64,000 nucleotides of DNA from Opitutia bacterium ISCC 52. GTDB lineage: Bacteria; Verrucomicrobiota; Verrucomicrobiia; Opitutales; UBA2995. The first letter of the stretch is position 1; every line of letters begins with the position of its first letter. Under the pieces are notes generated by a model. It did not search any database and was not told the origin of the DNA. It was given only the letters and a program-made list of their open reading frames with translations. Shown piece by piece: positions 37,380 to 56,708 of this stretch. The stretch is from NCBI GenBank assembly GCA_014529675.2, contig CP076040.1, positions 1,922,001 through 1,986,000 on the forward strand. The letters run 5' to 3'. The translations under genes were made by a program, and so were the position numbers.

Positions 37380-39233
37380 ATGGCAATGAAGCACCTCTCT
37401 ACGCTGTTTTTAATTCTTCTCTGTATTCTCAACGTGGCCTGTAGGGCCCAACGAGGTAAATCTCCCGTCCTTGGATTTAATCAGGTCAAAACCAATGTCA
37501 TCGTGATCATAACGGATGACCAGGGTTACGGAGATATTGCGGCTCATGGAAACCCAGATATCAAAACGCCGGGACTCGATGCGCTACATGCCGAAAGTGT
37601 GCGATTGACTGATTTTCATGTCGATCCTACCTGCTCACCCACACGTGCGGCTCTGCAGACCGGACGCTATTCCTCCAGGGTAGGGGTTTGGCTTACTTAT
37701 GGGGGACGGAATCATTTGCGGAAGGACGAAGTAAGCTTGGGAGATGCCTTTAAGGAAAGTGGCTATAAAACGGCTACCTTTGGTAAGTGGCATTTGGGCG
37801 ATAACTACCCATTTCGGCCTCAAGATCGTGGTTACGATCATTCACTCATTCATGGGGGAGGAGTTGTTGGAGAAACGCCTGATTACTGGAATAACGATTA
37901 CTACGATGATACCTATTTCAGAAATGGAGTGCCCGAGCAGGTTGAAGGGTATTGCACGGACGTCTGGTTTCGTGAGGCGGGTGATTGGATTGAAGAAAAC
38001 AAAGAAGAGCCGTTCTTTGTCTATCTGGCTACCAATGCACCCCATGGGCCTTCCCATGTGCCGATGGAATATGTGCAACCCTATCTCGATGCTGGAATCC
38101 CCAAGGCTCGGGCTATCTTCTATGGTATGATTCAAGTGATTGATGAGAATATCATCGGGCTAAGGCAGCGGCTTGAAGATCTGGAAATCGCAGAGGATAC
38201 GATGATTGTTTTCATGACAGATAATGGAACCACGCGTGGTTACGAACTCGGTGAGAATCCCGAATATCCGAAATCCGGGTACAACTCCGGGATGCGCGGA
38301 AAGAAGTCCTCGGCTTATGAAGGTGGACATCGAGCGGCAGGATTTATCCATTGGCCTAAAGGGAACCTCGTTCACGGGACCGACGTGCCTCAATTAACTG
38401 CTCATGTGGATATTATGCCAACCCTGGTTGAGCTTTGTAATCTCAAATTGCCCAAACGAGTAAGATTCGATGGAACGGATATATCCCCGCTACTTCGTGG
38501 GAAACCCAATTCATGGTCTGACCGAACACTGTTTGTGCATCATCAAGGAAGATTCGGTCAGTTTGTGGGCGATGGCTTCCTTATAAAAGACAAAGATTAT
38601 GCTGTGATGACTCAACAGTGGCGCATGGTTGGGGACGAGTTGTACGAGATCGCATCAGATCCAGGACAGCGAACGGATGTGGCAGCCGAAAACCCCAAGG
38701 TCGTGAAAAAGCTGCGCGAAGAGTATGAGGATTGGTGGGAAGATATCTATCCGGGATCCGAAGCCTATGTCCCCTTCGTGGTCGATGCAGCCAAGCAAGA
38801 GGTGTATACGCTATCTTCTCAAAATTGGCATGGTGATACGATTCCTTACAATCAACACATGGTTCGAACCGGGATGGAGGGAAATGGATTTTGGGCAGTG
38901 GATATTGTTGAAAGCGGCAGTTACGAGATTTCTGTTCACCGGTGGCCTATGGATGCAGGTGCAGCTATGAATACAGCGGTTGAGCTGGGGCCTTATGATC
39001 CTTCGCTTCATAGTATTAATGCTCGGACCAGTGAGCCCACGAAAGTAATGGAAGTAAGGTCCGTTCGCTTAAAGGCTGCGGATTATGATCAGACCCTCGC
39101 TGTGACTCCCGGTGATAAGGAAGTACGGTTCAATGTCTATTTGCCGGAAGGCGAACACAAGATACAGGCCTGGCTGAATCTCGAGTCGGGTGATTCGAAT
39201 GGCGCCTATTATATCTACCTGAGGAAATCTTAG
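37380..39233 (+). CDS. Arylsulfatase with C-terminal beta domain
   Basis: Exported sulfatase of 617 residues. N-terminus MAMKHLSTLFLILLCILNVACRA may be a signal or a weak lipoprotein signal. Motifs: IITDDQGYGDIAAHGNP (metal), Cys85 in CSPTRAAL (formylglycine), FGKWHLGDNYPFRPQDRG, NAPHGPSHVP, FMTDNGTTRGYE (metal) and YEGGHRAAGFIHWPKG. From about residue 500 an extra beta domain follows (FWAVDIVESGSYEISVHRWP to GAYYIYLRKS). The same type of tail is what survives in the remnant at 1001-1314. YEGGHR and the long PQDRG block are typical of arylsulfatase A-like enzymes. It starts a run of three sulfatases leading to the sugar-acid operon. Confidence 0.9.
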   Translation: MAMKHLSTLFLILLCILNVACRAQRGKSPVLGFNQVKTNVIVIITDDQGYGDIAAHGNPDIKTPGLDALHAESVRLTDFHVDPTCSPTRAALQTGRYSSRVGVWLTYGGRNHLRKDEVSLGDAFKESGYKTATFGKWHLGDNYPFRPQDRGYDHSLIHGGGVVGETPDYWNNDYYDDTYFRNGVPEQVEGYCTDVWFREAGDWIEENKEEPFFVYLATNAPHGPSHVPMEYVQPYLDAGIPKARAIFYGMIQVIDENIIGLRQRLEDLEIAEDTMIVFMTDNGTTRGYELGENPEYPKSGYNSGMRGKKSSAYEGGHRAAGFIHWPKGNLVHGTDVPQLTAHVDIMPTLVELCNLKLPKRVRFDGTDISPLLRGKPNSWSDRTLFVHHQGRFGQFVGDGFLIKDKDYAVMTQQWRMVGDELYEIASDPGQRTDVAAENPKVVKKLREEYEDWWEDIYPGSEAYVPFVVDAAKQEVYTLSSQNWHGDTIPYNQHMVRTGMEGNGFWAVDIVESGSYEISVHRWPMDAGAAMNTAVELGPYDPSLHSINARTSEPTKVMEVRSVRLKAADYDQTLAVTPGDKEVRFNVYLPEGEHKIQAWLNLESGDSNGAYYIYLRKS

Positions 39234-39352
39234 TATTTAGTCGATATTAAGGGCAGGGTAAATGACTTAAACGTACGGCCTCATGTTGCCTGAACTGTTC
39301 CAATCATTTTTTCCTCTTCAATTGGTAGAGAATGTCACACTATTAGGTTTTT

Positions 39353-40858
39353 ATGATTCTTCATCGATTCTCTCTCTTCTTCCTGACTCTATGTTGCTCA
39401 TCCTTTGGTCTGCTGAAAGCCCAACAGAAGCAACCCAACATCCTCTTTATCTTCACGGATGACCAATCTCACCGGACGGTCTCGGCTTACGAAGATTCCA
39501 GGCAGTGGATTAAAACTCCTAACATTGATCGTCTGGCCGAAGAGGGAATACGCTTTAAACACGCCTTTGCGGGCCCGTGGTGTGCTCCGAGTCGGGCCAT
39601 GTTCCTAACCGGTAAGCATCTGCATGGCATCCAGGGATTGGATTTCGTTGAATATCCTAAGATCAATCAGACGGAGGACTTTCGCATGTGGCCTGAGGTA
39701 TTTAGAGACAATGGATACACCACCGCGGTGATTGGGAAATGGCATCTGGCTTCTGACTATCGTCATGGGCAGGTGTGGGATCACTCCATTATCTGGGAAC
39801 GACTGGGTGGTGAGAAAAGCGGGGATTACTTTCGGGGCCAGAAACTTCGATTCGATGAAGGCGACTTCACGCCCGTAGGTGGGCATTCCACGGATAATTA
39901 CACGAACTATGCCGTCGATTTTGTGAAGCGAGACCACGAGAAGCCCTGGATGCTCTGGCTTTGTTATGATGCCGTGCATGCGCCCTTTACTCCGGCTGAT
40001 CGACATGAGGGTGATTACAGTGACGTGGATTCTATCCCGGTGCCTGGGGATATCTATCCACCGAGACCAACCAAGCCAACCTATATGCAGAACTACTCGA
40101 TGTTCTCGCCGGGTCCGGATGGTGTCCCTGTAGACGAAAGGCAACAGCTGCCGCTTCCAAAGCTCGTCCAGAAATACAACGAAGGGGTGCTTTCTATTGA
40201 TGAGGGTGTCGCTGACCTTTTGGAGACTTTGAAAGCTACGGGCCAACTCGATAATACCATCATCGCCTTCAGCTCTGATCAGGGGATCGCGATGGGGCAT
40301 CATGGTATGGAGATAAAGGTGGCTCCTTATGATGATAATATTCGGGTGCCCTTTATTGTTCGATTGCCCGATGGTACCTCGGCGGGAAGAGTGATCGATC
40401 ATCCGGTTAATGTGATTGATCTGGTACCTACCTTTTTTGATTACGCAGGGATTGATCTTCCTTGGAGAATGCATGGAGACAATATTCGACCCTTGCTGGA
40501 GGACTCGGTTATCACCTGGGATCGTCCGTTGATTCAGGAGAATTTCAGTCGCAGCTTTGGACCGCAAACGGATCGAGGCTTGACTCTGGTCGATCCAGAA
40601 CAGGGAATTCCTAACCAGAATGTGGATTGGTGGATTTTTACGAGGTATGGAAAGTATAAATACATCCAGACGTTGGTTGAGAATGAAATCGAGGAATTGT
40701 ACGACATCGAAAATGATCCACACGAATTAACGAACCTGGCCTTGGATCCAGCCTATCGATCGACTTTAACTGCATTGAGATCCAAGATGCTTGCTGAACT
40801 CGAGCGTATGGACGCCGGTTTTGTTAAGAATCTTCCTGAACCCAAACGAACCCCATGA
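39353..40858 (+). CDS. Sulfatase (formylglycine type), translationally coupled
   Basis: Exported sulfatase of 501 residues with signal FFLTLCCSSFGLLKAQ. Motifs: FIFTDDQSHRTVSAYE (metal), Cys77 in CAPSRAMF, VIGKWHLASDYRHG, LCYDAVHAPFTPADRHEGDY, FSSDQGIAMGHHGMEIK (Gln replaces the usual His or Asn of the SDHG/DNG metal motif) and ELYDIENDPHELTNLAL. Its stop codon overlaps the start of the next sulfatase (ATGA at 40855-40858), so the two proteins are made together and may act on successive positions of one substrate. Confidence 0.9.
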   Translation: MILHRFSLFFLTLCCSSFGLLKAQQKQPNILFIFTDDQSHRTVSAYEDSRQWIKTPNIDRLAEEGIRFKHAFAGPWCAPSRAMFLTGKHLHGIQGLDFVEYPKINQTEDFRMWPEVFRDNGYTTAVIGKWHLASDYRHGQVWDHSIIWERLGGEKSGDYFRGQKLRFDEGDFTPVGGHSTDNYTNYAVDFVKRDHEKPWMLWLCYDAVHAPFTPADRHEGDYSDVDSIPVPGDIYPPRPTKPTYMQNYSMFSPGPDGVPVDERQQLPLPKLVQKYNEGVLSIDEGVADLLETLKATGQLDNTIIAFSSDQGIAMGHHGMEIKVAPYDDNIRVPFIVRLPDGTSAGRVIDHPVNVIDLVPTFFDYAGIDLPWRMHGDNIRPLLEDSVITWDRPLIQENFSRSFGPQTDRGLTLVDPEQGIPNQNVDWWIFTRYGKYKYIQTLVENEIEELYDIENDPHELTNLALDPAYRSTLTALRSKMLAELERMDAGFVKNLPEPKRTP

Positions 40859-42276
40859 TACCTTTCAAGAAAGCAGGCTGTTTGCTTCTGTTATTTGCGT
40901 CGCTTTCTTTGGCTGCGCAGACTGAGCGTCCCAATGTGCTTTTTATAGCAGTGGATGACCTGAATAACTGGGTGGGTTTTCTGGATAACCATCCAGGAGT
41001 CAAAACGCCACATATGGATCAATTGGCGAAGCAGGGGATGCTCTTTACCAATGCTTACTGTTCAGCACCAGGTTGCAATGCATCGCGATCAAGTTTGTTT
41101 ACCGGGTTGAGGCCTTCGAGCACGGGGATTTATGCCAATGGGCATGATTGGCGCAAAATGGATATTACCAAGGATCTGGAGACTCTTCCGGTTACTTTGC
41201 AAAACGGAGGTTACAAGACGGTGCGTGGAGGTAAACTCTACCATGCGCATACACTTCGAGAATCTGCTTACGAAGGACATCTGGATCCTGAGCCCTGGGA
41301 TGGTTATTTCCCTTCGCGGAATCTACAGCTGCCGCCCGAGGTCGAACCAGCATCCTGGCCGGTTAATACTACAAAGATGTTTTATCAAGGTCGTTGGGAT
41401 TGGGCGCCCCTGGATATTGAAGATGCCGAGATGGGGGATGCCAAGGTGGTTTCCTGGGCTGAAGGAGAATTGTCAAAGACTCACGACAAACCCCTGTTCC
41501 TCGGAGTAGGTATTTACCGACCGCATTGGCCATGGTGGACACCTCAATCTTATTTCGATCAGCATCCACTCGATGAAATTGAGTTTTTGCCGGAGCCTGA
41601 AGATGACTTGGATGATTTGCCGGCAGCCGGAAGAAAAATGGTTCGAAGTAGATGGGACGACTGGATTCTGGATAAGAACCTGCGCAGCCATGCCATGCAG
41701 GCCTATCTTGCTTCCATGACATTTGCGGATGCGATGGTCGGACGTTTATTGCGAGCCTTAGAAAATGGACCGCTTGCTGATAATACCATCATTATACTAT
41801 GGTCGGATCATGGTTACCACATCGGGCAAAAACATCATTGGGAGAAGTTCGCTCTATGGGAGCAGACGACGAATGTGCCTTTGATTATTGTGGATCCTCG
41901 TAATGAGAAAGCAGGTACGCGGATTTCTCAGCCTGTTAGTTTGTTGGATCTTTATCCGACCATAGCCGATCTTTGTGGGCTAGAAGCTCCGGAGCACCTT
42001 GAAGGTACCAGCCTTTTTCCGCTTCTTCGAAACCCCGAAGTGGAAACGAACCGTGGAGTTATTACGACACAGGGTTTAAAGAACCATGCTGTGCGGTCAG
42101 CTCATTGGAGATATATTCGGTATGCGGATGGGTCCGAGGAGCTCTATGACCACCGGAACGATCCTCAGGAATTTACCAATTTGGCAGGTCAGAGTGAGTT
42201 TGATTTTGTGAAACGGTATCTTGGAGAGATGCTTCCACTTAGAAATGTCAAACCACCCGCGCGAGGGGCGGACTGA
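40855..42276 (+). CDS. Sulfatase, iduronate-2-sulfatase-like, coupled to the previous gene
   Basis: Exported sulfatase of 473 residues; signal LLLLFASLSLAAQTE. Motifs: FIAVDDLNNWVGFL (metal), Cys74 in CNASRSSLF, where Ala stands in the third position (a permitted C-x-A-x-R variant), GVGIYRPHWPWWTP, SDHGYHIGQKHHWEK and ELYDHRNDPQEFTNLA. The HYHIGQ and YRPHWPW blocks resemble S1_7-type enzymes at 6044 and 18305. ATG overlaps the previous stop by four bases. The GntP operon starts 113 nt downstream on the same strand. Confidence 0.9.
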   Translation: MIPFKKAGCLLLLFASLSLAAQTERPNVLFIAVDDLNNWVGFLDNHPGVKTPHMDQLAKQGMLFTNAYCSAPGCNASRSSLFTGLRPSSTGIYANGHDWRKMDITKDLETLPVTLQNGGYKTVRGGKLYHAHTLRESAYEGHLDPEPWDGYFPSRNLQLPPEVEPASWPVNTTKMFYQGRWDWAPLDIEDAEMGDAKVVSWAEGELSKTHDKPLFLGVGIYRPHWPWWTPQSYFDQHPLDEIEFLPEPEDDLDDLPAAGRKMVRSRWDDWILDKNLRSHAMQAYLASMTFADAMVGRLLRALENGPLADNTIIILWSDHGYHIGQKHHWEKFALWEQTTNVPLIIVDPRNEKAGTRISQPVSLLDLYPTIADLCGLEAPEHLEGTSLFPLLRNPEVETNRGVITTQGLKNHAVRSAHWRYIRYADGSEELYDHRNDPQEFTNLAGQSEFDFVKRYLGEMLPLRNVKPPARGAD

Positions 42277-45851: not shown

Positions 45852-47465
45852 CTAGCCATTTTGAGTGCCCGGTTTACTATTACCGAATAAGCTCTTCAAT
45901 TCCGTTACTTTTGTAATTAATAATTGGGTACCTACGGCAGAACCGTTTCCTGTTAGGGTGATAGGAGTTCCAACGTGGTAGGCCAAATTGAAGTCATGGA
46001 AATCGCGAAATGAGATTTCTATTTTCACAGATTCCTGACCTTCAACATCGATATAGAAGATCTTTGCCTCATCCAGATTATCGGACATGCGCAAGCGACC
46101 TTGAGCCGTAATAGTTTCCGTAGAATGTTTCACCCAGCTGTTGAACGGTTGCTCCTTGAACTCTTTGAAGTGTCCTCCGTCTAAGCCAGGTAGTGGGTTG
46201 CTGGAAGAGGAGTAATTTTCGGCATCAACACCAAACGTTTTTAGCAGGGAAAGGTGAAGGCTGCTCACCTCTTGGTTTTTTGCGTAACGAATATACCTGC
46301 CTGTTTTAAGGCGCCCCTGACCATTGCCTGCGAGAATGATCGGAATACGTTGGGCGGTATGGTTGTCGCTGTGTCCCATCCCTGAACCAAAGAGCACAAT
46401 GCTATTGTCCAGCAGTGTTCCATTCTGATCCTTGTAGCTTTTCAGCTTAGTAAGGAGATAATCAAATTTCTCCATATGCCACAGGCTTATTTTTAGGAGA
46501 GATTCTAGATTCTTTCGGCTGAAGTTTCTAAAGAAATGAGACAGGTAGTGGTGTTGTTCATTTACTCCCAAGAAGTCAAAGATCATGCGACTGTTGCTAT
46601 TACCCAGCATATAGGTGATGCACCTGGTAGAATCCGTCCACAGAGCCAATGCAATCAAGTCAATCATCGTGTCGACTTGTTCATTGAGATTTCCGCCCAC
46701 GGGTGGACGTTGGAGATCGGCCAGATCTATGGGGGAAACCGGTTTTGATTTCTCTATGTTTTCGATTCTTCGTTCGGTATCTCGAACCACAGTGAGATAC
46801 TCGTCTAAGGTTTGTTTATCCTCAGAACCGGCATCGCGTATCAACGCTTTGGTATCGTCTTGAACACGATCGAGCAGGCTGCTCATTCGCTGACGTTGAT
46901 TGGGGTCGCTCAGGGGATTTCGGAAGAGTCGATCAAATACGAGTTGAGGATCGCTTTCTCGCGGTATGGCACCTCCGTCCTTGTCGTATGAGATATAGCT
47001 ACAGCCAAATTGCCCCGTAAATAGTCCTTCCGTAGTAAGTTCGAGTGATCGATGAGCTGTGCCATCACTGACCTTGTCGGCGATCATTTGATCTACTGAG
47101 GCACTGTCCTTATTCTCATGGTGACCAGACAGGAATCGACGTGTCGAATTGGCATGGGAGGAAAAACCAAAATCCCCCATGTTGTCCAATATGAGCAGGT
47201 CTTCCTTGTGCTTGGCGAAAGGGGCCATGAGTGGAGACATGCGAAAGTCAAATTCGGTGCCACCGTTGATATTCCAGGAAGGAGGGTGAACTCCATTGGG
47301 TTTAAATAAAGTAAGAAACCTTAGGGGGACTTTACTGGCTGTTTTTGTATTGCCGATAGCATGGGTGGTGCTTGCATCCATCAAATTTAGGAATGGCAGG
47401 GGAAGCACAGCTCCGGCGACGCCTCTGAGAAATGTCCTGCGATCAATTTTCCAATTTCGGGCCAT
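45852..47465 (-). CDS. DUF1552 family protein, Tat-exported
   Basis: A 537-residue protein with a twin-arginine signal (DRRTFLRGVAGAVLPLPFLN). DUF1552 blocks are seen in RFLTLFKPNGVHPPSWN, ILDNMGDFGFSSHAN, RFLSGHHENKDSASVDQMIA, FGCSYISYDKDGG, VLFGSGMGHSDNHTAQRIPI and LPGLDGGHFKEF. In this type of pair the DUF1552 protein is always next to a DUF1592-type cytochrome protein, as here (34 nt from the gene at 47500). DUF1552 is related to the DUF1501/sulfatase-like alkaline phosphatase superfamily. No reaction is known. Confidence 0.88.
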   Translation of the reverse strand: MARNWKIDRRTFLRGVAGAVLPLPFLNLMDASTTHAIGNTKTASKVPLRFLTLFKPNGVHPPSWNINGGTEFDFRMSPLMAPFAKHKEDLLILDNMGDFGFSSHANSTRRFLSGHHENKDSASVDQMIADKVSDGTAHRSLELTTEGLFTGQFGCSYISYDKDGGAIPRESDPQLVFDRLFRNPLSDPNQRQRMSSLLDRVQDDTKALIRDAGSEDKQTLDEYLTVVRDTERRIENIEKSKPVSPIDLADLQRPPVGGNLNEQVDTMIDLIALALWTDSTRCITYMLGNSNSRMIFDFLGVNEQHHYLSHFFRNFSRKNLESLLKISLWHMEKFDYLLTKLKSYKDQNGTLLDNSIVLFGSGMGHSDNHTAQRIPIILAGNGQGRLKTGRYIRYAKNQEVSSLHLSLLKTFGVDAENYSSSSNPLPGLDGGHFKEFKEQPFNSWVKHSTETITAQGRLRMSDNLDEAKIFYIDVEGQESVKIEISFRDFHDFNLAYHVGTPITLTGNGSAVGTQLLITKVTELKSLFGNSKPGTQNG

Positions 47466-47499: not shown

Positions 47500-49467
47500 T
47501 CAGGGAAGAATTGTTTCGTTGAATGGCAGACTCAATGCCACTTCAACAAAGAGATCACGCCATGAACCGTTGTTTTCGTCAATCTTTTCGGTAATCGCAT
47601 CAATGGTCGGACGATCAAAGGCCTCAAGCTTTCGACAAAGCGCGTATGCCAAAGTCTGCTCAACCGCATTGTGAATGATGTCCTTCCGCTTGGAATTAAG
47701 AAGAATCTGTTTTAGCCCTTCGTAATCTTCGAATCTTTCTCCACTGGGAAAGCGTCCCGAACTATCCAATACGTCGAGCGTGTCATCATGCTCTTTCTTG
47801 CGTCTGGGAGGTTTATAATCGTCAGCTAGTTTGTAGAGGCCGGCGTCATCGTAGATTTGCATGGAAAATCCTAAGGGGTCGAGCCGATCGTGGCATCGGG
47901 CACAGGTTGGGTCGCTGCGATGTTGTTCAAATCGTTCGCGAAACGTGAGGTCTTCGTCCGGCAGTGTAGCCTGAATCGCGGGAACGTCTGCGGGCGGTTC
48001 TCCGAGTCGTTCGCCTAGAATGCGTCGAAGCATCCAGGTTCCTCTGAGGATAGGCCCTCGATTCATCGCGAGAATGCCCGGCATGGTTAGCATACCGCCG
48101 CGACCATCGTACTCTTGCAGCGTCATTCGCTGATTGGGCACGAGCTGCCGTTCAATCCCTTTGGGTTTCTGGTATTTCACCAGCTGCGATCTGTTTTTAG
48201 GGTAATAGCCCGCAGTGATATAATTGGCAAATGCGACTTTTGAGTCGATGAGCTCTATGACAGGTCGATTTTCAGTAAAAAGGTAATTGAGAAAATCTAT
48301 TGGCTGACTTCTTAGAGCATCCCGTTTGGTGACGTCTTTGTCTGCATTATCAATGTCTGCCAAGCCCAGCCACTGAGCACCAAAACTTTCTGCCAGAGAT
48401 ATCGATTTGGAGGACGCGAGCATGCGGTTCACTTGAGCCTCCAATTGGGAGCGCGTGCTTAGTCGCTTTCGTTTGGCTGCCCGAAGTAATTCTTCATCCG
48501 GCATATCTTCCCACAGAAAGTAAGATAAGCGTTCGGCCAGTTCATAGGAATCTACTGCTTGTTGTTGCCCTGATATCCCTTCCATTAATAGCCCTCGGTA
48601 AAGAAAGGAAGGGGATACCAGGAGGGCTTTGATCTCATCCTTGGCTGCCTGGACCAGGGCTTCACCTTTGAGCCCCTTGATTGACGCAAGGATCTTTTCG
48701 GCGCTCTTCCTCTCCAGAGGACGGCGGTATGTTTGAAGACTGAAATGCTTAAGCAGCGATCTGGCCTGCTTCTGGTTAAAATCCTTGGTTTCAAAATGCG
48801 GCGGAAGTGACTGACCTATTATTGTTGCCAGAGCATCTCTTCGTTTTGGCGTAAACAGTTCGCTTAAAGCCCTTTCTGCCAAGTAAACATACTGCTCCCA
48901 GGTGTTGGCATCCAAGCTTACGCCATGAGTGTCGTTGACAAATCCACTTTCACCAGGCGGGTCAACAGGAAGCAGTTTTATGGCCAGGGAACTTTCTGTT
49001 CGCGTTTGCTCCGCGGCCATCACCGTATTCTCCAGTTCGAAACCAAACAAGGACGTTAAGGTGTTTCGATACTCAGGCGCAGATAGGCGTCTCGGCTTAA
49101 ATTCAGCAGGTCGGGCTTCAACGGTATGGATGAACCGTTCTTCGTACCAATCAATGATTCCTTGTGCTTCTTCGATACTTGGACGCTTTTCTTCCTCTTC
49201 AGGAGGCATTTCTTCGTAAGCGAGTACATAGGCGACGGTTTCCCAGATTTCGAAATGCGTGGCAAAGTCCTTCTCAGATTTGATCAAGGTGAAGTCTGTG
49301 TCTCCTTTTACTTTTTCGCCACCATGGCATTTGATACAGTAGGAATCTACAAATTCTAGAACCTCAGAATCATTTGGGAGGCTATAAAGATCGACAGCGG
49401 GAGCTAGGAATAGCAGGATGAGCAGATAGCGGTAGAGGTGTTTAGGAATGCTGACGATTGAGATCAT
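47500..49467 (-). CDS. DUF1592/1588/1587/1585 cytochrome c-type protein (PSCyt group)
   Basis: A 655-residue secreted protein. ATG 49467 gives a hydrophobic signal (LYRYLLILLFLAPAVDLYSL); an in-frame start at 49512 adds 15 residues. A haem motif Cys44-I-K-Cys47-His48 follows in SYCIKCHGGEKVKGD. Then come the serial domains of the DUF1587-1592-1588-1585 family: RRLSAPEYRNTLTSLFG, YRRPLERKSAEKIL, ELAERLSYFLWEDMPDEEL, ILAMNRGPILRGTWMLRRIL, and CARCHDRLDPLGFSMQIYDD with a second CxxCH. The C-terminus LAYALCRKLEAFDRP-SWRDLFVEVALS is DUF1585. Electron transfer outside the cytoplasm is implied. It overlaps nothing and is paired with DUF1552. Confidence 0.88.
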   Translation of the reverse strand: MISIVSIPKHLYRYLLILLFLAPAVDLYSLPNDSEVLEFVDSYCIKCHGGEKVKGDTDFTLIKSEKDFATHFEIWETVAYVLAYEEMPPEEEEKRPSIEEAQGIIDWYEERFIHTVEARPAEFKPRRLSAPEYRNTLTSLFGFELENTVMAAEQTRTESSLAIKLLPVDPPGESGFVNDTHGVSLDANTWEQYVYLAERALSELFTPKRRDALATIIGQSLPPHFETKDFNQKQARSLLKHFSLQTYRRPLERKSAEKILASIKGLKGEALVQAAKDEIKALLVSPSFLYRGLLMEGISGQQQAVDSYELAERLSYFLWEDMPDEELLRAAKRKRLSTRSQLEAQVNRMLASSKSISLAESFGAQWLGLADIDNADKDVTKRDALRSQPIDFLNYLFTENRPVIELIDSKVAFANYITAGYYPKNRSQLVKYQKPKGIERQLVPNQRMTLQEYDGRGGMLTMPGILAMNRGPILRGTWMLRRILGERLGEPPADVPAIQATLPDEDLTFRERFEQHRSDPTCARCHDRLDPLGFSMQIYDDAGLYKLADDYKPPRRKKEHDDTLDVLDSSGRFPSGERFEDYEGLKQILLNSKRKDIIHNAVEQTLAYALCRKLEAFDRPTIDAITEKIDENNGSWRDLFVEVALSLPFNETILP

Positions 49468-49609
49468 TAGGGAAGACAATCTTTGTTCTGCACGGATCTG
49501 TTTTTCTAACAAGAGAAAATTAAGGTGACGCTCTATTGGCCGAAGCAGTGAGCGGATAATCGATCGTTTTCAGATGCTACCAGAAAAAGCTAGGCTCAAA
49601 TGAATTCGT

Positions 49610-51085
49610 TTAAGCAAATAGCGCCGAAACGCGTTCGGCTTTTACTAACTCACGAGGTTGATTGAGATGATTGTAAACGATGGTGGTCGGATCGATGCCC
49701 ATGGCGTGGTAGACCGTGGCCAGAATTTCGGTAGGGTGAACCGGTTTTTCTATGGGCGCTGAGCCAGTCTTGTCGGACTTGCCATGAACATAACCCCGTT
49801 TGATACCTGCTCCACCAATGACGCTGGTGTAACAGTAAGGCCAGTGGTCCCGTCCATCCGCACTGTTGGTATTGCCAGAAGTGGATACACCTTTCTCCGG
49901 GCTTCGTCCAAATTCACCAATTGCTACAACGAGAGTCTCGTCGAGTAATCCTCGGTCATCGAGATCTTCGAAGAGTGTGCTGAGGCCTTGGTCCAGCATG
50001 GGGCCGGATTGTTCCTTCATGCGTTTGCTCAGGCCTACGTGGTGATCCCAACTGTGATTATCGGAATTGGCGACTTTCGGCCAAACGACTTCAACAACCC
50101 GTGTGCCAGCCTCTACCAGTCGTCTTGCCAAAAGACAGCTCTGCCCAAACGTATTTCGACCATAGCTGTCACGCAATTTTTCATCCTCTGCCTGAATATT
50201 GAAAGCGTCACGAGCACGTCCACTAACCAGAAGGTTCAGGGCCTGATCATAAAACTCATCGATGTTGTAGTCTTCTACGGCTTTATCGATAATTGGCATT
50301 TGCGCGTTGATGGCTTCTCGAAGGCTCGCGCGGCGACGTAGTCGTGCCGAGAATACATCGGGTCGTAGTTGGAGGTCATCGACTTTGATGCCATCCATTT
50401 TATCGTGTTTCATGTCATCGCCTTCAGGAAAGAGATAGTAGGGGTCGTAAGCTTTGCCCAGGAATCCTGCAGTTCCACCTTTATTGACCACGTTCGACTC
50501 TTGAAGGGGGCGGGGAAGCATGACGAAAGGAAGCATGGGTTCGTCCGTTGGTTTAAGCCGTGTAATGTTGGAGCCGAAGTTTGGGAAATCTTTTGGAGTC
50601 GGTGGTTCTAACTGACCGGATGGGCTTACCTTGTCAGTCGTATATCCGGTCATGATTTGGTAGATCGCTGCCGTATGGTTAAATAAACCATTGGGCGTGT
50701 AGCTCATGGATCGTATCATAGTGAATTTATCGTTCACTTTTGCCAGCTTTGGCAGGATATCCGTAAATTGGATACCCGGGATCTTAGTGGAAATGTTATT
50801 AAACTCCGATCGCACATTGTCCGGCACTGAGTTTCTCTCTTTCGGATCCCATAAATCTAAATGGCTGGGGCCACCTTGGAGGTAAACCATGATGACGGAC
50901 TTTGCTTTTCCCCAGCCTGGCCCACCAGCAAACTCACTCGAAGCCGAAGCCGATTGAGCACGGAGAACAGAGTTGAGGGTTAGTCCTAGCATACCTGCTC
51001 CACCCACACGTAAAAAATCACGTCGACTGGTATTGAGATGCGAATCGCAGAGGTCTTTTCCTTTAGGTCCTGGTACTCTGAACAT
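49610..51085 (-). CDS. DUF1501 family protein, Tat-exported
   Basis: A 491-residue protein with a Tat signal ([19 protein letters not shown]), fold of the alkaline phosphatase/sulfatase superfamily. DUF1501 blocks: [90 protein letters not shown] and [21 protein letters not shown]. It acts in the periplasm, probably after folding in the cytoplasm. It stands downstream of the giant DUF1553 cytochrome protein (451-nt gap, filled with repeats); this pairing is standard in Planctomycetes and Verrucomicrobia. The function is unknown. Confidence 0.9.
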
Positions 51086-51536: not shown

Positions 51537-54500
51537 TTAGTGGTTAAAGAGGAAGGCGGAATTATTGATCAGGGCCCAGGCGAGATCCTGGGCAGCTGTC
51601 AGTCTGGTATTGCCGGCTTGTTGGCTGGAGTATTGCGCATCCTTTCGTAACTGAACTAACACAGGATCGTCCTTAACCGGAAGTTCAGCCTTGGCCAATG
51701 CGGCTTTGAGTAATTCCATTTTGGGATCCAGCGGTATTGGTCGCTTGGCTACCAGCCATTCATGGCGCCTGTTTAAATAATCTGGGTCTTGAAATTTAAC
51801 CCATGCTTCGAGGCTATGGCCATCTTCCTCATTTCGAAGGTCTGAAGGTTTTTGCAGGATCGTAGCGATGGCTTCAGGCAGACCGAGATTAACGGGGTCG
51901 CTCGAGTCGGTGGCTAGTAAACGGAATTTACCAAGTGGCCAGTCACCGTCTGAGTAACGACAAACAATGGTCACCGTTAGGTATCCGCCTTCCTCGTCAA
52001 TTTCCAATGGTTCACTGAGTTTCATGCGGGCCCAATGAGGTTGTCGACCTGCTCCTGCGACTGACCAGGCTTTGTCATTTCTTTCATTGGCACCGTTAAT
52101 CAACTTGGCGACATCGTAGCCTTCAGCGACATAATCGGCCGCGGCTTCGGAGAAGCTAAGTTGTACCAGATCTTTTGGTTTGGGATCTTCGAGCGTTGAG
52201 AAGCTCGCTTTTACTTCGCTCACTACGAATTCTCCAGATTCACGGAGTCCAGGACCAAACCCAGGAATGGAATCCTCAGTAAGCGTCTCCAGCATGAGAC
52301 CCGTCAGGGTTTGTGACGAAACCGGAATCGTTATTACGTAATCAATATTCCTTCCATTCAAGTCAGAGACCAAAACAGATGCGTCATCCTTAACTTCAAG
52401 CTTCGCCTTTCCAGCTCCTGTTTTTGCATCGGATGGGGTGAGCGCTTTCCATTCTGTCTGGAATCGATCCGTCGTAATAGATCCGATTGTCTGATTGGTT
52501 TTGTGGGTAAGGATTTCTGAATCAAACAGATCTAATCGAGTTTCGTTAGAGGCTATGAGTTGCTTGCGCTCTTGTTTGGCGATGCTCTGCTTCTTTTGGT
52601 ATTCAGGCATATAGTCATCCATTTCTGTCTGAGCTAAGGTCATGTTCTGATAGCGATTGGATTCTAATACTGACTTTTTGTAGACCCAATCGCTCTCCAT
52701 CTCAGCTAACTGCCGGAGGAGGTCAGCATGATCCTGTTCGATTAATTCCCAGCTCTTTTTAACCAACGCTACCTCTGTTTGCGTCGCCTGACGATTCAGG
52801 ATCCGTAAGTAGATCTTTTCAATCAAATGAACATCCTCTGGCTCTTGCTCCACTAGCTCTGCAAGCGCATTTCTTGGATCGCCAACCGCTTCTGCAATCG
52901 CCGGACCACTGAGCAGAGACATGACTGCACCTAGTTGTACGTCGTTGGTGCGGTCGCACTCGCAGGAGGATTCCCTTGTCGGTCGCCCGAGGTTCGCCAG
53001 GAAACCGCTTTTAGTATCGAGTTTGGCATCTGCCAGTTGCGCTGCTCGCATGCCGGGTTTAGCGCCAGGGATGTTGGGAGTAGATCCGGTGACAGCATGA
53101 ACTGCATCGTAAATAACTTCGGCGGGAAGTCTGCGCGCCTTTCCATGAGAGTAGTTAATCTCATCATCTTCGTTAAACGGATTGGTTTGAATCGATAGCT
53201 GATAGGTACGCGAATTGCAGATCTCCTTTATTAAAGCTCTTACGTCGAACCCGGAATCTATAAAGAAATCAGTCAGGTAGTTCAGTAGTTCTGGATTGGT
53301 TGGAGGATTGCCGGCACGTATGTCATCGATGGGTTCAATGATCCCAGTTCCAGTGAGATATCCCCAGATACGATTTGCATAGCTCTTGGCGAAGAATTGA
53401 TTATCTTCCGCAGTGATCCAGGCAGCGAGCTGTTTTCGTCTGGACGGTTGCAGGTTGTTTTCATCCTTTATTGCCTTCGACGTAGCCGGGTAGGGGAAAG
53501 CTGGGTTCGCTATCTCGCCGGTTACGATATTCGTAACCGTGCCTTCGGTGAGATCTGAAATGACCTCATAGAGGGGTTTGGCGTTTTCGACCGCGCTCCC
53601 GCCAATATTTTTTTCGGGTGCGTTTTCTTGGTCTCGCTTAAGCCCGATTTGAGAAAAGAAAGCGGCCGTCTGATAGTAATTGTCGACGTTCCACTTTTCA
53701 AATGGATGGTCGTGGCACTTGTTGCAATTGAACCGGGTAGCTAGAAACAGGTGAGTAGTGTTTTCAACGAGCTCTTCGGGAGTTCTTAGAATCTTATAAT
53801 AAGAAGCTGCAGGGTTTTCTTTGTTAGAGCCACTGGCTGTCAGTATCGAATAAACGAATTCATCGTAAGGCCGGTTCTCGGATACCTGGTCGTGTATCCA
53901 GTTTCTGAATAATTGCGCCCCGTCTTTGCCAAGGAATTTAGAATTCACCTGAAGCATATCAGCCCACTTGTTGCTCCAATGGTCCACGAATTCTGGTGAT
54001 CCGATGAGAGAATCGATCATTTCGGAACGTTTCAGCTTGGTTGGGCGATCGTCTTTGAGAAAGGAGATGATGGCTTCAGGGGTTGGTGGCAGTCCATTTA
54101 GGTCTAGATGAATGCGACGCACAAATGCCTCATCCGATGACAGTCCAGATGGGAGGATTTTCATGCGCTGCCATTTGGCGGCGATTAAGTTATCGATGTC
54201 GTTCCAGGTGTCAGGTTCTTTCCATTCAAAGCCTGTGCGATCTCCCATTACTGTAAGAGTGGTCGCTGCGTAAGCGCCTTCATAGCGAGCAAGGATAGGG
54301 GCCTCGCCACGTCGCAGGGTTCCTATGAGGCCAAAATCATCAGCAAAGGCTACTTCTGTATTACCGATCTCAACAAAAGATTCCAAGGTGACATCACGCT
54401 GAGATCCATTGGGGTAGTGAGCAATGACACGGATTTGTTGGCTGGAGCTAATGGATTGAATCACCGGGTTTTGTGGTTGGAGCTCAATGCGCTCCACTTT

Positions 54501-56708
54501 TTCTGAATCCGCATCGAACTGAGCACCATCTGAGATCCACTGGCGAATCGTGTTGTAATAATTGGAGCCGATTTCGGTGACCATACTACCTTCATGGGGT
54601 ACGGCACCGGTTGCTTTGAGTAGCATGAGGGAATCATCCGGGGAAGCGAAGTTCACTCTTCTGGCCGCATGATCGTCGCTAAACGCACGCACGTCGAAGA
54701 GATTGTCGTAGCCACGCAAACTTAGTTTGAATCCTGCCTTACCATCCTTGGCTCCATGGCAGGTGCCAGCGTTGCAACCCAAACGGGTTAAAATCGGATT
54801 CACGTCTACCAGAAAGTCGGGGGTATATTCATCCTTGAATCCATTTACTGAAATTTTGGCGAAGGCTTTTTTGCCATTGAAACTGGCGGTCAAGGTACCA
54901 CGACCATTAGTGTTAGGACGAACGACTCCCCGATCATCAACCGAGGCCACCGTCTTACTGAGGGTCCAATCTACTTGCCGTGTGAGGTCTATCGCTTCGC
55001 CCGATGCGAGTTCGCCATTAATCAGGACCTGATTATAACTCATGGGTCCGTTCAGTGTAATATTCGCAGGATAGATGGATAAGGAAACAAGCTGTTGGCT
55101 TTCGTTGAGTGGATTTAATCCCTGGTTGGCCTTACCCTTCTTCAGGTTAATTGGATTTTCTTTCACTTTATGCTTTGCCAACGATTTCGAGTCGGAAACC
55201 TCCACGGGTATAATGCTATTTCGGATTTCACCACTCGATGCATCGACAAATAGGATGCGTCCATCCGAGGTGCCTGCGGCTACCGTTTTTCCATCCGGTG
55301 AAAAAGCGACCGAAAAAACAGGGGAATCGATATCAAAGGAATGAAGTTCTTCTGCTCCACGTGTATGAAATTCCTCGATTTTGGGATCGATGTTCTTGGT
55401 TCCATCCGGATTGCGTCGGGCTGTTTCGAATCGCTTTTTTAATTCAGGAGTAATCGTTGCATCGTAATCTGACTTGTAGAGTTTGATCTGGCCCAATCCG
55501 TTTAGGCTCGAAGCGGCGGCAAAGCTCTTAGCATCTGGTGCGAAAGCAGCGCTCCAGATGCGCCCAATCATGGCAGGGTATTTGCGAATGAGATTGGCAT
55601 TGTCTCCGATCTTACGATCTGTCTCGCGATGCATTCGGTAAATCTGTGGAACTCCATCCGAACCGCCCACTAGTATGTGGTCCCACTCAGGGTGGCTATC
55701 AATGGCATTCATGCCGCCTTTGAGTGCGTTTGGCGTTATGGAAGTTATATTATCAATAAATCGTTCGGTTTCGACATGGGTAAGCTTGGCACTCATGTCA
55801 CGACTGACGGATACAAGGTGCTGACCGTCTGCGGACCACGCTGTATCCAGAATCCAATCACTATGGCCGCCCATGATGAAAATTTCTTTCTCTTTCTCGA
55901 CATCGAATGCATGCACCGTGTTGTCAGGCAAACCATAAGCGACATACTTTCCGTCCGGTGACCAACTGGCTCCGTAGGCGGTATCAAATCCGACGGGCTT
56001 GGAAAGAATCAGGCTCCCCTTGGCAATATCCCAAATTTGTATTTCACCCATGCGGCCGGGTAGTCCGCCAGCAACGGCCAGCATATCGCCGTTCGGCGAA
56101 AATCGTGCAGATTCGATTCTTTCGGATAATCCAATGAGTCGAGTGATTAATCCTGACCCATCCGCCTTGTGAATGAGCACTTCATGGAAACCGGCAACCG
56201 CGAGCAGCTCACCATCCGGAGAATAATCAAGGGAAGTCAGAACCGGTGGAACCGCGTATTGGGGTGGATTGTCGCGGTCGTAGAGTTGTTTTGCATTTTC
56301 CGGGGTGTCGTCACTGGCCCCCGTGGCAATCCACTTGGTTACCAGCTCTAGTTCATAAGGCGTGAGAGGTTCATCCTTCTCAGGCATTTCAGGACGTTCG
56401 TCTCCTGGTTGGAGCGTGACTACATCGATCAGATAACTTTCCTCGGGTTTGTAGGGTATGACAACCGCTTCGCCGCCCTCACCACCGGCAAGGAGGGATT
56501 CCACGTCCGTCATTATATAATCCGCCTTCGACCTGGATGGCTGGTGACAGCCATGGCATTTTTCCTGAAAAATAGGTCTTATGTGTTCATAGTAGCTGAT
56601 TCGCTCAGGGATGCCGACATCGGGTTCGTTCGCGTGAAGGGCAATAGAAGTGAGCAGGCACGCAAACGCGAACCAACAGGGTCGAAGTAGGGTAGTGGCA
56701 GAAGACAT
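51537..56708 (-). CDS. Giant PSCyt/WD40/Big2/DUF1549-DUF1553 cytochrome protein
   Basis: A 1723-residue exported protein, the largest in the window. Order: signal peptide; planctomycete cytochrome domain with Cys51-H-G-Cys54-His55; a WD40-like propeller (about residues 160-500: LTSLDYSPDGELLAVAG, SASWSPDGKYVA-type blades, FSVAFSPDGKTVAAGTSDG); a Big2-like immunoglobulin domain (VDWTLSKTVASVDDRGVVRP); a second haem-type segment (LGCNAGTCHGAKDGKAG); DUF1549 (RRIHLDLNGLPPTPEAI, HWSNKWADMLQVNS, TRFNCNKCHDHPFEKW) and DUF1553 (RIWGYLTGTGIIEPIDDIRA, ICNSRTYQLS). A C-terminal concanavalin-like portion follows. Its partner DUF1501 gene lies downstream. Proteins of this type are found only in PVC and related bacteria; the role is unproven, perhaps surface electron transfer to a polymer substrate. 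Confidence 0.88.
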   Translation of the reverse strand: MSSATTLLRPCWFAFACLLTSIALHANEPDVGIPERISYYEHIRPIFQEKCHGCHQPSRSKADYIMTDVESLLAGGEGGEAVVIPYKPEESYLIDVVTLQPGDERPEMPEKDEPLTPYELELVTKWIATGASDDTPENAKQLYDRDNPPQYAVPPVLTSLDYSPDGELLAVAGFHEVLIHKADGSGLITRLIGLSERIESARFSPNGDMLAVAGGLPGRMGEIQIWDIAKGSLILSKPVGFDTAYGASWSPDGKYVAYGLPDNTVHAFDVEKEKEIFIMGGHSDWILDTAWSADGQHLVSVSRDMSAKLTHVETERFIDNITSITPNALKGGMNAIDSHPEWDHILVGGSDGVPQIYRMHRETDRKIGDNANLIRKYPAMIGRIWSAAFAPDAKSFAAASSLNGLGQIKLYKSDYDATITPELKKRFETARRNPDGTKNIDPKIEEFHTRGAEELHSFDIDSPVFSVAFSPDGKTVAAGTSDGRILFVDASSGEIRNSIIPVEVSDSKSLAKHKVKENPINLKKGKANQGLNPLNESQQLVSLSIYPANITLNGPMSYNQVLINGELASGEAIDLTRQVDWTLSKTVASVDDRGVVRPNTNGRGTLTASFNGKKAFAKISVNGFKDEYTPDFLVDVNPILTRLGCNAGTCHGAKDGKAGFKLSLRGYDNLFDVRAFSDDHAARRVNFASPDDSLMLLKATGAVPHEGSMVTEIGSNYYNTIRQWISDGAQFDADSEKVERIELQPQNPVIQSISSSQQIRVIAHYPNGSQRDVTLESFVEIGNTEVAFADDFGLIGTLRRGEAPILARYEGAYAATTLTVMGDRTGFEWKEPDTWNDIDNLIAAKWQRMKILPSGLSSDEAFVRRIHLDLNGLPPTPEAIISFLKDDRPTKLKRSEMIDSLIGSPEFVDHWSNKWADMLQVNSKFLGKDGAQLFRNWIHDQVSENRPYDEFVYSILTASGSNKENPAASYYKILRTPEELVENTTHLFLATRFNCNKCHDHPFEKWNVDNYYQTAAFFSQIGLKRDQENAPEKNIGGSAVENAKPLYEVISDLTEGTVTNIVTGEIANPAFPYPATSKAIKDENNLQPSRRKQLAAWITAEDNQFFAKSYANRIWGYLTGTGIIEPIDDIRAGNPPTNPELLNYLTDFFIDSGFDVRALIKEICNSRTYQLSIQTNPFNEDDEINYSHGKARRLPAEVIYDAVHAVTGSTPNIPGAKPGMRAAQLADAKLDTKSGFLANLGRPTRESSCECDRTNDVQLGAVMSLLSGPAIAEAVGDPRNALAELVEQEPEDVHLIEKIYLRILNRQATQTEVALVKKSWELIEQDHADLLRQLAEMESDWVYKKSVLESNRYQNMTLAQTEMDDYMPEYQKKQSIAKQERKQLIASNETRLDLFDSEILTHKTNQTIGSITTDRFQTEWKALTPSDAKTGAGKAKLEVKDDASVLVSDLNGRNIDYVITIPVSSQTLTGLMLETLTEDSIPGFGPGLRESGEFVVSEVKASFSTLEDPKPKDLVQLSFSEAAADYVAEGYDVAKLINGANERNDKAWSVAGAGRQPHWARMKLSEPLEIDEEGGYLTVTIVCRYSDGDWPLGKFRLLATDSSDPVNLGLPEAIATILQKPSDLRNEEDGHSLEAWVKFQDPDYLNRRHEWLVAKRPIPLDPKMELLKAALAKAELPVKDDPVLVQLRKDAQYSSQQAGNTRLTAAQDLAWALINNSAFLFNH

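Follow-up and report, generated by a model that had tools for sequence, protein, structure and literature searches.

In this study, an open reading frame of 1723 codons in the genome of Opitutia bacterium ISCC 52 was found to encode a member of an old orthologous family, in which three haem motifs are invariant, the fused form is widely conserved, and a separate DUF1501 protein is inherited together with the fusion. Our tentative reading, to which we give a probability of roughly 45%, is that the fusion is a tri-haem redox protein of the cell envelope that works with the DUF1501 partner, predicted to have an alkaline-phosphatase fold, as a redox-linked enzyme system. The stretch analysed, referred to as the window, consists of 64,000 nucleotides of contig CP076040.1 (positions 1,922,001 to 1,986,000), and coordinates below are those of the window.

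The frame (51537..56708, minus strand) was intact and uninterrupted, with a Sec-like N-terminus, and its assignment as an exported tri-haem fusion protein is based on the ORF, Pfam matches and orthologues. Joining by artefact or frameshift was rejected because 68 other full-length sequences were found. Three genes follow on the same strand, after gaps of 451, 97 and 34 bases, respectively: a DUF1501 gene (49610..51085; Pfam, alignment, co-occurrence and fold) whose product has a twin-arginine leader, SRRDFL; a gene for a DUF1587/1592/1588/1585/1595-type protein with two CX2CH motifs (47500..49512; Pfam and motif search); and a gene for a DUF1552 (HXXSHH) protein (45852..47465; Pfam). Promoter and terminator scans gave signals no higher than those in shuffled sequence. 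A sequence-only reading had described this locus as a 1723-residue chain with haem, WD40, Big2 and DUF1549/1553 domains, next to a Tat-type DUF1501 gene and followed directly by a DUF1592-type plus DUF1552 pair; all of this was confirmed, and the three haem motifs, one of them CX4CH, and a C-terminal sandwich domain were added.

The domain order of the fusion is PSCyt1-WD40-Ig-CX4CH-Ig-DUF1549-DUF1553-coiled coil-CBM32-like-C-terminal helices. PSCyt1 (aa 51-110, 56379..56558; Pfam 5.7e-11) is followed by a WD40 beta-propeller at about aa 158-500 (55209..56237; Pfam) and by the first Ig/Big_2-like domain (aa 536-626, 54831..55103), recognised by Pfam on family members and by fold. Big_2 scored 16.6 bits in the fusion of the window, below the Pfam cut-off of 22.8, and was matched at E 0.1 or better by 27 of the 35 family members. 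The second Ig/Big_2-like domain (aa 735-825, 54234..54506) was assigned by fold and by a profile match to LigB/teneurin-like chains. DUF1549 (PSCyt2; aa 838-1021, 53646..54197; Pfam 1e-42) and DUF1553 (PSD1; aa 1090-1318, 52755..53441; Pfam 4e-40) come next, the latter containing an invariant C1249-x-C1251. In a predicted model covering residues 536-1723 (mean pLDDT 77.5), the second Ig domain matched LigA best, with Z 15.4 over 88 residues at 1.2 A, and a long coiled coil (aa 1310-1409) precedes a predicted CBM32-like beta-sandwich (aa 1412-1602, 51903..52475), for which the match to 4lqr was moderate (Z 7.8, 140 residues, 3.6 A). Ig domains filled the listing of the fold search with the C-terminal half, and among the matches listed there was no known fold for DUF1549/DUF1553. 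NCBIfam had no family covering the fusion or its C-terminal half. In nine loci (L097, L099, L102, L109, L113, L126, L132, L133 and L134), the CBM32-like region is interrupted after focal residue 1512 by an additional domain of about 218 aa, which gave only sub-threshold Pfam matches, to sugar-binding domains of glycosidases.

The three haem motifs are CHGCH in PSCyt1 (aa 51-55), CNAGTCH between the Ig domains (aa 645-651, 54756..54776) and CNKCH in DUF1549 (aa 995-999). The combination of CX2CH, CX4CH and CX2CH was present in 69/69 aligned full-length family members, the fusion of the window included, and by their sequence all three motifs are probably loaded with haem; the genome encodes the c-type cytochrome assembly protein PF01578. 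The CX4CH site is common to the fused proteins and to shorter Big_2-type proteins, and was not seen in the genome's 22 other PSD1 paralogues, over the stretches fetched. With PSCyt1, PSCyt2 and PSD1 in one chain, all above curated Pfam cut-offs, and with its two CX2CH motifs and one CX4CH, the fusion belongs to the already recognised PSCyt/PSD kind of protein.

Scanning public genomes yielded 79 loci, mostly full-length matches with 46-70% identity, in records mostly labelled Verrucomicrobiota or Planctomycetota, and in 62 of these loci the protein was encoded by a single open frame at least about 1600 aa long. Orthologues across both phyla are similar in length and have the same domain order; named strains carrying the fusion include Brevifollis (now Prosthecobacter) gellanilyticus and Thalassoglobus neptunius. 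In a tree built from residues 632-1320, the fused forms made up a single, fully supported group, adjoined by the shorter Big_2-type proteins, whereas the 22 other PSD1 proteins of the genome lay apart as a separate expanded clade. Since full-length single frames are widespread and form one clade, the fused chain is the normal condition in this old family and no local novelty, and a unique local fusion was rejected. The sequence-only reading had stated that related proteins often have these parts encoded separately or lack the Big2 domain. Split loci do exist: in L033, L034, L037, L040, L045 and L046, a gene for a 430-557-aa PSCyt1-WD40 protein directly follows a Big_2-DUF1549-DUF1553 gene. The implied rarity of the full fusion was not supported, as it is widespread in two phyla. 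A second, shorter fused form was seen in L048/L049, and plasmid records contained only pieces of the family.

Several loci departed from the common form. In L105 and L127 the family member consists of two genes, with the break between the propeller and the first Ig domain; only a few bases separate the two frames in L127, consistent with either natural fission or a sequencing error. In an Opitutaceae chromosome (L087, 7932-13150) the fusion is divided into two overlapping frames, with the break at focal residue 340. The family also turned up in records under the names Candidatus Kuenenia, Akkermansia muciniphila and Klebsiella pneumoniae (L083, L085, L073, L091 and L101), which look like mislabelled metagenome bins.

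The DUF1501 gene was the sole widely conserved neighbour of the fusion among genes of at least 90 aa, a size below which smaller genes could escape. The arrangement of a PSCyt2 gene adjoining a DUF1501-type gene, as seen in the window, recurred in 31 of 62 full-length loci, with DUF1501 downstream at no more than 0.7 kb. Twelve genomes whose fusion had no DUF1501 neighbour, mostly of Verrucomicrobiaceae, were checked, and all 12 encoded elsewhere a DUF1501 protein with 74-80% identity to that of the window, the next best having about 42% identity. The fusion was present in 8 of 52 genomes from the order, and the DUF1501 orthologue in exactly these 8; in one of them the fusion was represented by pieces lying at the ends of contigs. 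A further genome, congeneric with two of the 8, had neither. The Fisher p value for this co-occurrence was 1.3e-9, which is overstated because the genomes are related. In a phylum sample of 194 genomes, both were present in the same 4, and one fusion fragment was found alone. The partner evolves slowly, with 73-90% identity among the family. These results indicate that the fusion and DUF1501 are inherited as a unit even when their genes lie apart, which is the strongest functional evidence in this analysis and bears out the proposal that the two neighbours are a functional pair. That the genes are unlinked in Verrucomicrobiaceae counts against the redox-pair reading, as do the low confidence of the DUF1501 model, whose conserved residues do not obviously fit the usual metal ligands, and the moderate quality of the CBM32 match. 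Elsewhere in the ISCC 52 genome (G000:C1:3602281-3603193), an orphan PSCyt1 fragment adjoins a fragment of DUF1501 that contains an internal TGA, and together they look like a decayed pair.

Although the model of the DUF1501 protein was weak (mean pLDDT 52, pTM 0.63), fold comparisons pointed in one direction. Foldseek returned 36 significant matches, consisting of sulfatases and LtaS-type, NPP-type and other proteins of the alkaline phosphatase superfamily. VIA-align gave Z 12-14 to phosphodiesterases, PafA, LtaS and sulfatases, with 475 chains at Z 8 or more, of which the best 50 all belonged to this superfamily. The partner is thus predicted to have the alkaline-phosphatase/sulfatase superfamily fold, shared with NPP, PafA, LtaS and sulfatases. 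It differs from them in lacking CXPXR and in its conserved His-rich motifs, which are not obviously in the usual places. A pattern search of the window's DUF1501 sequence found no formylglycine signature C-X-P/A-X-R, and its two cysteines, C318 and C418, lie outside any formylglycine-type motif; identity as a formylglycine sulfatase was rejected because the signature is absent. Invariant residues in the alignment were H75, D77, D80, H137, T138, H344, D347, H349, E391 and H414, which in the low-confidence model show no obvious match to the usual metal ligands and, judging from their conservation, may form a metal site. The twin-arginine residues R21 and R22 are also invariant. The Tat pathway generally exports proteins that are already folded and perhaps metal-loaded, which suggests that the DUF1501 partner is folded, and perhaps carries metal, prior to export.

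Taken together, the invariant haem motifs, the presence of PF01578, the co-inheritance of DUF1501 and its predicted fold, the invariant R21 R22 and the CBM32-like fold argue for the tri-haem redox pair. The 1723-aa protein would be a Sec-exported, three-haem c-type cytochrome scaffold in the cell envelope, which the dedicated Tat-exported DUF1501 protein would join. Substrate chemistry would more likely take place at DUF1501, with its altered, His-rich and probably metal-binding site; electrons would be taken up by the DUF1549/DUF1553 part and the two internal haems (CX2CH and CX4CH), and the N-terminal PSCyt1 haem would pass them to the respiratory chain. Docking and substrate holding may fall to the propeller, Ig and CBM32-like domains. 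The substrate is perhaps a glycan or an envelope polymer, which is a guess. Quinohaemoprotein amine dehydrogenase likewise combines haem, Ig and propeller domains and has a small quinone-bearing subunit; it serves as an analogy only, the structural match being limited to the Ig domain. A bolder version, in which the pair would represent a new enzyme class with an alkaline-phosphatase fold, a changed His-rich metal site for redox chemistry on polymers, and electron transfer to a tri-haem scaffold, is in our view improbable. The literature searched contained no biochemical data on any family member.

Since a large share of the chain consists of Ig, propeller and CBM-like modules, and the Ig-domain fold matches include adhesins and S-layer proteins, the fusion might instead be a structural or sensory envelope protein, whose haems and propeller would function in assembly, adhesion or sensing, with no catalysis by the pair. 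We consider this doubtful, as three strictly invariant haem motifs and a slowly evolving partner with an enzyme fold suggest chemistry.

The sequence-only reading had gone further and suggested that the two neighbouring pairs act in a joint surface process, maybe delivering electrons to the oxidation of sulfated glycans. Both pairs do lie on one strand, with the last three genes closely spaced. When the DUF1592 and DUF1552 proteins of the window were searched in all fetched loci, they were found nowhere except in the window, and several of these loci extend 6 kb or more past DUF1501 (9 kb or more for one same-genus and one same-family locus). In a species of the same genus, the closest DUF1552 orthologue (82% identical) was on another contig than the fusion. 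The neighbourhood of the fusion with the second pair is a local accident, and a joint process was not supported.

Sulfatases are rare near the fusion in other genomes. Of 27 well-covered loci, only 3 had any sulfatase gene within 8 kb, with 5 such genes in a total of 836 kb of flanking sequence, and no sulfatase was a conserved neighbour in the loci examined. The ISCC 52 genome has 312 first-look sulfatase candidates in 4.8 Mb, and ten sulfatase-like frames lie in the window, at about 583-42273; because the density is so high genome-wide, those near the fusion mean little. Genomes with the fusion are rich in sulfatases (first-look medians 181 vs 16, p 6e-6, from unscored counts in related genomes) and have at least 7 DUF1552 genes, which supports part of the sequence-only reading. 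An orthologue of the window's DUF1552 was present in 4 of the 52 genomes of the order, all with the fusion, and thus in only 4 of the 8 fusion genomes. Sulfatase richness belongs to the genomes and not to the fusion locus, sulfated-glycan oxidation found no backing, and we regard a joint surface machine of both pairs as very unlikely. At 37380-42276, three sulfatase-like frames in a row stand before genes for a GntP permease, an SDR and a protein of the enolase superfamily; this group looks like a set of genes for the breakdown of a sulfated sugar acid.

Neighbourhoods of the fusion loci showed no conserved catabolic neighbours, and the fusion is never duplicated within a genome of the order sample, is spread over two phyla and stands apart from the expanded clade of the 22 other PSD1 genes. 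These observations would fit a general envelope redox role, such as oxidising polymers made by the cell itself, with no relation to food glycans. The distribution is patchy (8/52 genomes of the order and 5/194 of the phylum sample, one of the 5 being a fragment), so the protein is not essential, and we judge this role unlikely.

PSCyt/PSD proteins of Verrucomicrobia were described in 2017 in architecture groups I-III (PMC5615132, Fig. 8). Like the fusion, these are single chains that join cytochrome domains of the planctomycete type to PSD domains, and Big_2 and WD40 are among the accessory domains listed; the genes for PSCyt2 and for PSCyt3 each adjoin a separate family of unknown genes, and sulfatases often lie near, a proximity not seen around the fusion family. 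In the text of that paper we found no single orthologous family, CX4CH site or dedicated partner. For PVC bacteria, a DUF1501 gene is reported to lie in a conserved cluster (Kamneva et al. 2012, as cited in PMC4452313 and PMC4960237), several of whose proteins have signal peptides. In proteobacteria, DUF1800-DUF1501 gene pairs (PMC5122149) likewise consist of a Tat-type DUF1501 and a second conserved protein of unknown function. They differ in having DUF1800 as the partner, to which just 1 of 35 fusion family members showed a weak match. DUF1501 is also a frequent neighbour of WD40 genes in Planctomycetes (PMC5587647). A planctomycete proteome paper (PMC8567305) contained nothing on the fusion or partner families. 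What is new here is the definition of one orthologous family with an invariant haem set and a dedicated partner.

In Verrucomicrobiota and Planctomycetota, PSCyt/PSD and DUF1501/DUF1552 proteins are present in dozens of copies per genome, and the literature found gives no known function for them. The fusion family offers a good handle on function, being single-copy in the order sample, with one partner that can be traced even when unlinked and three invariant haem sites; Prosthecobacter gellanilyticus and Thalassoglobus neptunius, as named strains with the fusion, add to this handle.
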